A stretch of 64,000 nucleotides of DNA from Thermococcus pacificus. Its GTDB lineage: Archaea; Methanobacteriota_B; Thermococci; Thermococcales; Thermococcaceae. Of the stretch, positions 29,572-31,962 are shown one piece after another (positions within the stretch are counted from its first letter, which is position 1; every line of letters starts with the position of its first letter). The stretch covers positions 1,054,001-1,118,000 of the forward strand of contig NZ_CP015102.1 of the NCBI RefSeq assembly GCF_002214485.1, read 5' to 3'. A program made the translations under genes and the position numbers. Below the pieces are notes generated by a model, which had not been told where the DNA came from, searched no databases, and was given only the letters and a program-made list of their open reading frames with translations.

Positions 29572-29832
29572 TCAGGCCTTGGAGGCCGTAACGCGCTTGG
29601 CGACCTTGCCTGCCGGAGTGGTCGGCAGGTAGGCACCGCCGGCAAAGGTGGCACCGCACTTCTGGCACTGCCAGATTCCTGTGCTTATCCTCCGGACGGC
29701 ATTCCTTCCGCAGACCGGGCAGACGTGCTTCTGCTTCATCTTGGCCTCAACGGCCGCAACCCTTCTCCTTATCTTGAGACCATACCTCGGACCGAACCTT
29801 CCAGCGGAACCGACCTTAGTAGTCCTTCCCAT
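29572..29832 (-). CDS. rpl37ae: 50S ribosomal protein L37Ae (eL43)
   Basis: An 86-residue zinc-finger ribosomal protein: basic N-terminus [18 protein letters not shown] and two CxxC pairs (HVCPVCGRN and WQCQKCGA). The ATG at 29832 follows GGTGATG; three extra in-frame codons upstream include that ribosome-binding site. First gene of the rpl37ae-rpoP-brix-pcc1 unit, with its TATA box at about 29888-29903. Confidence 0.97.
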
Positions 29833-29887
29833 GAGCATCACCCCTAATTATCAGCGATTTTCACGACTGGAAAGTGTTTCCGGAGAC

Positions 29888-29903
29888 GTTTTATAAACCT
29901 TTG
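29888..29903 (-). promoter_or_regulatory. TATA box of the rpl37ae operon
   Basis: Minus-strand AAAGGTTTATAAAACG, with expected transcript start near 29865, about 33 bases before the L37Ae ATG. It abuts the first hairpin of the adjacent hairpin-rich region. Confidence 0.6.
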
Positions 29904-29908
29904 CATAA

Positions 29909-30307
29909 CAAGCTTTGCTGACGCAAAGCTTGACCAAAGGGATTTAGGCCATTTAAACTCCAAACCGGGTGCGTGCACCCCGAGAATTTAAAGCTTTCTG
30001 TGGGTTCTCTGTTATGCACGCCTACTTCATCTTTTGGTTTCCACTGTTTCCACTTATATCTTTGGCGTCCTTTGGACGCCGTTTGTGCAGCGAAACACTC
30101 ACCAAAGGGGCAAGTGAGTAAAACCCCTTCCAAAATTTGGACATTATAAGAAAGTACATAATTTTCCGCCAGCGCTTCGTGGGAAGCTAAGCTTCCCGAC
30201 GTGTTGAGACCGTGTCTCAACATGCGAAGCAAAGGACTGAAAGGGGGCCATTGAGGATGTCGGCCCCCTGGGGGTCCCGACGTCATCGCAACCCAATACT
30301 CGTCGGG
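29909..30307. other. Hairpin-rich region without a gene
   Basis: About 400 bases between the rpl37ae promoter and a DUF3201 gene contain at least eight perfect or near-perfect inverted repeats: 29909-29932 (10-base stem, loop TGAC), 29967-29980 (GGGTGC/GCACCC), 30064-30080 (GGCGTCC/GGACGCC, loop TTT), 30097-30119 (ACTCAC/GTGAGT), 30181-30197 (GGGAAGC/GCTTCCC), 30200-30224 (11-base stem, loop CGT), 30243-30268 (GGGGGCC/GGCCCCC) and 30276-30307 (CCCGACG/CGTCGGG). GCTTCG 30174-30179 pairs with CGAAGC 30225-30230 to enclose two of them as a three-way junction. A candidate structured RNA or cruciform element; identity unknown. Confidence 0.55.
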
Positions 30308-30367
30308 CGTTTGGCCTTACTCGCAAAGCCTTATAACCCTTAACCCAACCCCCTAATGGTGCGAAAG

Positions 30368-30868
30368 ATGACTGGAACGGTAAGCAAGATAATCCACTTT
30401 CACGATGAAGAGGAGTTCCTCGACGACATGAGTGCGGCTATGGAGCGCTTCTCCTACCTGGCGAGCAAGTACGGCCACAACCCCATCGAGGGTGTTCTTC
30501 TGTGGGACTACGTTGGGGTTCGTGACGAGGAAGGCATAAAGATATTCCGTGTTGGTGAGTTCCCCTACTTCGAGGGCACCCTGAAGGTCGACCTCGAAAC
30601 TCTCCGCGTTATGGAGCGCTACTTCGACGAGATGGAGAGCAAGTGGGACGAGCTCCGCGTTGAGGACATAGCCTACTTCGTCGAGATGCTCAACGAGGCT
30701 TTGGGAGAGGAGCGCGTTTACTACGAGGCCTACGACCTCGGTCTGGACAGGAACACGGCCTACATAATCCTCAACATCGCCAACCTCCACTACCTTGAGA
30801 GCGTCCTTGACGGGAGGGACAGGGAGATATTCGAGGAGGCCGTCGAGCTGCTGATGAGATATGTGTAA
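30368..30868 (+). CDS. DUF3201 family protein
   Basis: An acidic 166-residue soluble protein (TGTVSKIIHFHDEEEFLDDM..., ending FEEAVELLMRYV) of the Thermococcales DUF3201 family, mostly helical, with no known activity. The ATG at 30368 has GGTG seven bases upstream; an in-frame ATG at 30356 is possible. A TATA-like CCTTATAACC near 30329 would place the transcript start close to 30355. Confidence 0.75.
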   Translation: MTGTVSKIIHFHDEEEFLDDMSAAMERFSYLASKYGHNPIEGVLLWDYVGVRDEEGIKIFRVGEFPYFEGTLKVDLETLRVMERYFDEMESKWDELRVEDIAYFVEMLNEALGEERVYYEAYDLGLDRNTAYIILNIANLHYLESVLDGRDREIFEEAVELLMRYV

Positions 30869-31200: not shown

Positions 31201-31962
31201 GTGAGGCTCATAATGGCCGAGGTCTTCAACAGCTGGCAGGGCGAAGGGGGAAGCGTTGAAGGGAGTGCCTTTGGGAGAAGGCAGATTTTTGTCAGATTCG
31301 CCGGCTGCGACCTTCATTGCCAGTGGTGCGACTCCAAGGAGTACATCGATGCATCCCGCGTCTCCCGCTGGCGCTACGAGGTCGAGCCTTTCACAGGGAA
31401 GTTCGAGTACAGGCCAAACCCTGCGAGCGTTGATGAAGTCGTTGACGCCGTTCTGAGGCTTGATACGGGGGACATACACTCGATAAGCTACACCGGCGGC
31501 GAGCCGACCCTCCAAGTGAAGCCGCTGAAGGCCCTCATGGAACGCATGAAGGAGCTGGGCTTTGACAACTTTCTTGAAACCCACGGCGGCCTTCCGGAGC
31601 TGATTAAAGAGGTCGCTCACCTCGTCAACTACGCGAGTGTGGACATAAAGGACGAGAGTGCCGGAGCAACAGATGACTGGAAAGACCTCGTTCTTAGGGA
31701 GGTCGAGAGCATAAGAATCCTGAAGGAAGCCGGCGCGAAGACCTACGCCAAGCTCGTCGTTACTTCCGAAACGAAGCTCGAAAACGTCCGCTGGTACGCG
31801 GAACTGTTAAATGGATTGGCCCCGCTCGTCATCCAGCCGAGGGAGCCAATCGATGTCCCCCAAGAGAGGCTTATGGAGTTCTACGGCGAGGCGGCCAGGA
31901 TAATGGGCAGGAAGAACGTCGGCCTGAGCTTCCAGGTGCATAAGTACCTCAACGTTCTTTGA
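31201..31962 (+). CDS. queE: 7-carboxy-7-deazaguanine synthase
   Basis: Radical SAM enzyme that contracts CPH4 to the 7-deazaguanine ring on the way to archaeosine in tRNA. The cluster motif CDLHCQWC gives C36, C40 and C43 (Cx3Cx2C), preceded by SWQGEGGSVEG, the substrate-binding start of QueE; YTGGEPTLQ is the SAM-binding GGE motif. 253 residues; GTG start with GAGGTGGT upstream. Other 7-deazaguanine genes are not in this window. Confidence 0.94.
   Translation: MRLIMAEVFNSWQGEGGSVEGSAFGRRQIFVRFAGCDLHCQWCDSKEYIDASRVSRWRYEVEPFTGKFEYRPNPASVDEVVDAVLRLDTGDIHSISYTGGEPTLQVKPLKALMERMKELGFDNFLETHGGLPELIKEVAHLVNYASVDIKDESAGATDDWKDLVLREVESIRILKEAGAKTYAKLVVTSETKLENVRWYAELLNGLAPLVIQPREPIDVPQERLMEFYGEAARIMGRKNVGLSFQVHKYLNVL

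Follow-up and report, generated by a model that had tools for sequence, protein, structure and literature searches.

Why should 399 nucleotides between two genes of Thermococcus pacificus be packed with perfect hairpins? The region (29909–30307) is situated between rpl37ae, on the minus strand, and a divergent gene at 30356, inside the window, by which we mean the whole stretch of 64,000 nucleotides that was analysed. A sequence-only reading of this DNA had offered two answers: that it encodes a structured RNA, or that it is a palindromic element, either cruciform-forming or mobile. We find that each is right for a different part, as the hairpin-packed stretch consists of two neighbouring features and not one: the gene of the small RNA sRk28, where covariation bears out an RNA (30243–30308), and a copy of a palindromic element that is dispersed and lacks a strand bias in its wobble pairs (29909–30239). 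The RNA is already known; for the element, no description was found in the open-access papers searched. That this element moves, or has moved, is what we propose further below.

Composition of the hairpin-dense stretch

Counting non-overlapping perfect hairpins with a stem of at least 6 and a loop of 2–5, we obtain five in 399 nt, where about 0.4 would be expected; no other part of the window has as many. Sliding windows of 399 nt across the whole 64 kb hold 0.38 on average and at most 4, a maximum reached in an overlapping window, and Markov simulations average 0.41 and never exceed 3. Both strands also fold more stably than all shuffles, with z-scores of −5.5 (plus) and −6.3 (minus). The density claimed for the stretch is therefore beyond chance, although the accompanying figure of at least eight inverted repeats requires longer loops or looser rules than these. 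The arms lie at the positions claimed for them, the three-way junction is confirmed in the sequence, and both palindromes named are present:

29909–29932: hairpin arms CAAGCTTTGC/GCAAAGCTTG
29967–29980: hairpin arms GGGTGC/GCACCC
30064–30080: hairpin arms GGCGTCC/GGACGCC
30130–30140: palindrome CCAAAATTTGG
30174–30230: three-way junction, GCTTCG (30174–30179) and CGAAGC (30225–30230) around the next two hairpins
30181–30197: hairpin arms GGGAAGC/GCTTCCC
30202–30222: hairpin arms TGTTGAGAC/GTCTCAACA
30264–30274: palindrome CCCCCTGGGGG

Two stems with long loops had not been singled out, GGGGGCC (30243–30249) with GGCCCCC (30262–30268) and CCCGACG (30276–30282) with CGTCGGG (30301–30307). They are the two hairpins of sRk28, and the palindrome at 30264–30274 is simply the junction between them.

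A search with 29850–30352 in 94 Thermococcaceae genomes splits the region. Matches of its outer pieces lie at the orthologous locus; the middle, about 30043–30247, matches many other places, some of them in the T. pacificus genome itself. We reject the reading of the whole region as one RNA, because its two parts differ in conservation and history. No Rfam family reaches its gathering score in the window, and at an E-value of 10 the stretch gives chance hits only.

The sRk28 gene

Judged by its sequence, 30243–30308 encodes sRk28, an RNA with two hairpins and a length of about 66–70 nt that has its own TATA box and points away from the gene at 30356:

30243–30308, minus strand: sRk28 RNA gene, with hairpin 1 (30276–30282/30301–30307), hairpin 2 (30243–30249/30262–30268) and a 5′ end at about 30308–30309
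30331–30336, minus strand: predicted TATA box of sRk28, TTATAA, 22 nt upstream
29572–29841, minus strand: rpl37ae (Pfam PF01780), with its own TATA box at 29890–29897

sRk28 has been seen by Northern blot in Pyrococcus abyssi (Phok 2011, PMC3124441), where it is placed at 527697–527833 on the minus strand, with a 5′ start at 527798 and a size of 70/100 nt (PMC3124441). In T. kodakarensis it was detected by dRNA-seq as an orphan transcript regulated with growth phase (Jaeger 2014, PMC4247193), and the gene next to the orthologue is transcribed independently (PMC4247193). Our piece 30243–30308 matches G004:C1:527730-527797 in P. abyssi GE5 (G004); a single base separates the end of this match from the mapped 5′ start, and the strand agrees. 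These coordinates were cross-checked with SscA, which we found at 636803–636898 in the same genome, where Phok et al. put sRk33/SscA. The minus strand was deduced from the TATA box 22 nt upstream, independently of the published strand. Compared with the published RNA of P. abyssi and T. kodakarensis, the sequence core, strand, 5′ end and two-hairpin shape are the same and nothing essential differs; the gene context does differ, with the element lying directly behind sRk28 in T. pacificus.

Matches to 30238–30308 occur in all six genera among the 94 Thermococcaceae genomes, most of which carry sRk28, each in a single copy. Of 115 genomes of the class, 69 contain the exact core, always as a single occurrence; none of them lies outside the family, and the control gives 0. 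There is no match in G078, which we take to be T. sibiricus. The published list gives sRk28 for all Thermococcales except T. sibiricus (PMC3124441). Covariation analysis, a check proposed by the sequence-only reading, was positive: across 23 distinct sequences, 99.1% of the stem cells are paired and 15 have changed on both sides (CG/GC/UA and CG/GC), compensatory changes are present in both stems, and 0 of 500 shuffles reached this level. We do not claim kissing of the two loops, one of which, by eye, varies without a matching change in the other.

The neighbours of sRk28 vary and its TATA-like box is kept. The RNA gene is inverted relative to the 30356 gene at locus L062 (genome G031) and further from it at L038, L046, L054, L075 and L077, and in related loci the box stands at a similar spacing, including those that lack the divergent gene or carry the RNA in inverted orientation. 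Given these changing neighbours, sRk28 acts as an independent gene. The TTATAA at 30331–30336 is palindromic and may serve the divergent gene at 30356 too. That gene (30356–30868), earlier labelled DUF3201, has no Pfam match at 1e-3, and its homologues place the likely start of translation some 12 nt inside the listed ORF.

It could still be asked whether the entire stretch serves rpl37ae as a single long structured leader, or as a cis riboswitch of preQ1 type. The low folding energy would suit a leader, and the discoverers of sRk28 likened it to a preQ1 riboswitch (PMC3124441). Against this, sRk28 is found in differing gene contexts and once inverted, the middle part is altered or absent in related species, and rpl37ae has its own TATA box; we regard this explanation as barely credible. 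A preQ1-type cis riboswitch is unlikely here because no Rfam preQ1 class matches, at the gathering score or at an E-value of 10, and because sRk28 points at rpl37ae with its separate promoter. Nor does sRk28 occupy the 5′ UTR of a queuosine or archaeosine gene. A radical SAM protein resembling QueE is encoded at 31201–31962, two genes past the divergent gene, and this lies on the other side and strand. Its nearness seems incidental, since sRk28 points the other way.

A palindromic family behind stable-RNA genes

The hairpins of 29909–30239 belong to the element and not to the sRk28 RNA:

29909–30239, minus strand: a single copy of the dispersed palindromic element, reaching from the 3′ end of sRk28 as far as the promoter of rpl37ae, with homologous copies in the same genome and in relatives
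30234–30239, minus strand: the terminus of the element, CAGTCC where the consensus reads CAGCCC, 3 nt beyond the final pair of sRk28
30174–30230, minus strand: element end hairpin, its tip expanded by two hairpins (30181–30197 and 30202–30222) into the three-way junction
30164–30175, minus strand: conserved end box of type A, GCGCTGGCGGAA on the minus strand
30064–30080, no strand assigned: apex hairpin GGCGTCC-TTT-GGACGCC of the palindrome, with compensatory changes among 50 aligned copies
29909–29932, no strand assigned: hairpin of the type B-like end, on the far side of the unit

The unit belongs to a family of DNA elements in Thermococcus that are dispersed and non-coding, form imperfect palindromes and measure roughly 200–350 bp; they occur singly or in arrays of up to 1.8 kb. 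Each end is made of a short hairpin of variable sequence and a conserved box, either type A (GCGCTGGCGGAA) or type B (GATCAAGGTTyGTGG), and a GC-rich apex lies between the ends. On the minus strand of the window copy the order runs from CAGTCC through the hairpin to the type A box. In other copies the end hairpin is plain, as with CTTTGCTTCGCAAAG at the corresponding place in L080 and L088, and it is the window copy whose tip carries two extra hairpins. The gap between convergent tRNA-Asp and tRNA-Ala genes (L162) is filled by one single unit, about 315 bp long and with inverted ends of some 30 bp, and a 206-bp unit (L279) is one long palindrome with the apex GGCGTCC-AAA-GGACGCC. Among the copies, modules appear in shuffled combinations. 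A further dispersed module, also rich in GC, GGGGGGCTAACGCCCCC-ACACCCCC and CCCCGATGCGGGGTGAAGCCCCGC, occurs between the RNA gene and the type A end, or behind the C/D RNA sR36 (L087, L081 and L006 in T. pacificus; L266 in G031).

Further copies in the genome, which the sequence-only reading had suggested looking for, do exist. The box AGCGCTGGCGGAA has 13 exact occurrences in T. pacificus and is found in 72 of the 94 family genomes, against 0–1 per strand for the reversed box; it is absent from the nine genomes of one genus (g3), P. abyssi included. The combined pattern of box, CAGCCC and hairpin has a control count of 0 in every genome.

Elements start 1–9 nt behind the 3′ ends of tRNA genes, of sR36 (2 nt) and of sRk28 (3 nt), RNAs that have no sequence in common. 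At 79 loci in 8 genomes, picked by the element and not by tRNA, a tRNA 3′ end lies 16–22 nt before the box in 35 copies (pattern: tRNA within 60 nt), and for 65 copies there is a tRNA on the same strand no more than 1 kb away, in many cases at a distance greater by one unit (240–310 nt). Among the 46 tRNA genes of T. pacificus, about 40 of which have no tRNA or rRNA gene directly behind them, the pattern places the element behind 20 (8 type A calls and 14 type B calls, 2 of the latter spurious on inspection and 12 genuine); 2 degenerate A ends and 3 degenerate B ends recognized by eye bring this to 25. About half of the tRNA genes in this genome are thus followed, at base-pair distance, by a repeat family found in no open-access paper searched. 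The 3′ ends of RNA genes are a preference and not a rule, because there are copies next to protein genes, some following and some preceding the gene. No element is found at the SRP and RNase P RNA genes, which were examined as further targets.

Such a position might be explained if the element were a functional 3′ part of stable-RNA genes, a transcribed trailer that terminates transcription or guides 3′ processing and is kept by selection. The precise start behind mature RNA ends would fit, as would the replacement of a T-rich spacer behind sR36 and the pairing kept through compensatory change. In 50 aligned copies, the four element stems are 91.3% Watson-Crick paired, compared with 78.7% (s.d. 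0.7) when partners are permuted, and double changes occur at many positions. The mismatches tell against a trailer, however. Selection for RNA on one strand would tolerate G.U and not A.C, yet the element stems hold 27 G.T and 29 A.C, counted as cells in related copies and not as independent events, against 10 and 0 in the acceptor and T stems of 77 tRNAs used as a control. The short end hairpins of the element hold 6 and 3. A free hairpin scan yielded too few mismatches (5 against 1), so the aligned test was used. Because G.T and A.C balance in the element and stand at 10 to 0 in tRNA stems, the pairing looks like a property of DNA and is harder to reconcile with an RNA from one strand. Moreover, the element is absent from about half of the tRNA genes, from all SRP and RNase P genes and from all Pyrococcus-like genomes, and no tRNA flank of T. 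pacificus, with or without it, has a run of six or more T in its first 60 nt. We consider a functional trailer unlikely.

Turnover, possible mobility and known systems

Orthologous sites in related species are occupied, differently occupied or empty. Behind sRk28, the pattern assigns 7 of 50 listed loci to type A and 15 to type B; 28 fall to neither, several of them degenerate A or B on inspection. Orthologous tRNA-Leu-CAA genes are followed by A, B, a hybrid or something else, depending on the genome, and the stretch behind sR36 is a T-rich spacer of 39 nt in one genome (G015) and spans 188–930 nt in others. The one observation that points to mobility is this turnover. The occupied and empty sites behind sR36, the single such pair compared, show no target-site duplication, and the arrays examined hold no parent transposon or transposase with the element's ends; the longest (G022, 1.8 kb), which has inverted ends, contains no transposase. 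Copies are also carried by G019, presumably T. gammatolerans. They count against mobility, because T. gammatolerans was reported to be without transposase genes (PMC2718504).

A small HNH endonuclease gene is present behind tRNA-Val in 3 of the 94 family genomes, representing three genera (L087:1690-2166, which is G000:C1:1267850-1268323; G078:C1:1214756-1215199; G092:C1:854910-855359). It stands inside an element array in T. pacificus (L087) and lacks hairpin ends in the other two. We rejected its protein as an autonomous partner, given that the homologues are confined to two other genomes, behind tRNA-Val and without hairpin ends; it looks like a separate tRNA-Val-linked gene.

A repeat need not have a dedicated mover. 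An old one might spread by recombination or gene conversion between RNA-gene flanks, its palindrome kept perfect by template switching during replication. Shuffled modules, wobble pairs without strand bias and the lack of a transposase or target duplication at the loci examined all agree with this, as do the tRNA-Leu genes GAG and TAG (L002 and L004), which are 97% alike and have elements behind them with 95% likeness over 291 bp, as though gene and element had been converted jointly; behind other tRNA types, similarity is about 80–83%. But recombination would have no common sequence to act on between RNAs as unrelated as tRNA, sR36 and sRk28, and the element has defined ends with conserved boxes, and inverted ends. 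An origin without a mover therefore seems doubtful to us.

The explanation that we favour, with slightly more confidence than doubt, is a joint one: the sRk28 gene at 30243–30308 and, adjoining it, a unit of a dispersed palindromic family that is MITE-like and sits at stable-RNA 3′ ends. For the family as such, the evidence agrees best with a MITE-like element that has hairpin ends and is moved in trans. We propose that the units are or were mobile, that a putative enzyme acting in trans would read their folded hairpin ends as DNA, and that they may enter, or persist at, the 3′ ends of stable-RNA genes, where they would replace the native T-rich spacer. A bolder version, which we regard as a long shot, would make this a new class of mobile DNA, its hairpin ends read as folded DNA and its target being stable-RNA 3′ ends as such, for example via the RNA's own 3′ end or a paused polymerase, with copies that also give homology for tRNA-to-tRNA inversions in Thermococcus.

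If mobile, the element would represent a mobile-DNA load in a genus described as poor in insertion sequences (PMC2718504, PMC5495485). Two large inversions separate T. onnurineus from Thermococcus sp. 4557, bounded by tRNA-Leu/tRNA-Thr and tRNA-Leu/tRNA-Gly pairs. The integrase IntpTN3 is unable to recombine tRNA-Leu with tRNA-Thr, the genes being too unlike (PMC5495485). Elements behind different tRNA genes, at up to the 95% likeness of the two tRNA-Leu copies and the 80–83% between other types, could supply the homology missing for those inversions.

Like MITEs, the element is short and non-coding, has many copies and inverted ends, and turns over between species. It differs from them in the target duplication not seen and the parent transposon not found, in ends built of short variable hairpins plus a box, and in its strong preference for the 3′ ends of RNA genes. 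Terminal inverted repeats are found in the family (L162, L279) and not in the window copy, which has one type A and one type B-like end. Fungal mitochondria carry double-hairpin elements, which likewise are hairpin repeats invading intergenic space; they are organellar, of other sequence and without a claimed link to tRNA 3′ ends. The same applies to the repetitive hairpin-forming elements of sponge mitochondria (PMC2800124). The HgcC, sRk48 and sRk52 RNAs of Thermococcales share with our element that they are structured sequences repeated in the same taxonomic order, and sRk52 adjoins a tRNA gene (PMC3124441). The element does not match HgcC; a lone sub-threshold HgcC hit further along one array, behind tRNA-Trp (L003:1977-2092; 37 bits, cut-off 50), is perhaps a relic of an IS605-type right end. 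REP and BIME repeats of enterobacteria and pseudomonads, mobilized by RAYT (TnpA-REP) and marked by a GTAG-type motif beside the hairpin, are dispersed intergenic palindromic units, single or arrayed. Our element resembles them in forming such units and in having a hairpin next to a conserved motif, but its units are longer (200–350 bp), its boxes are different, and it is archaeal and tied to RNA genes.
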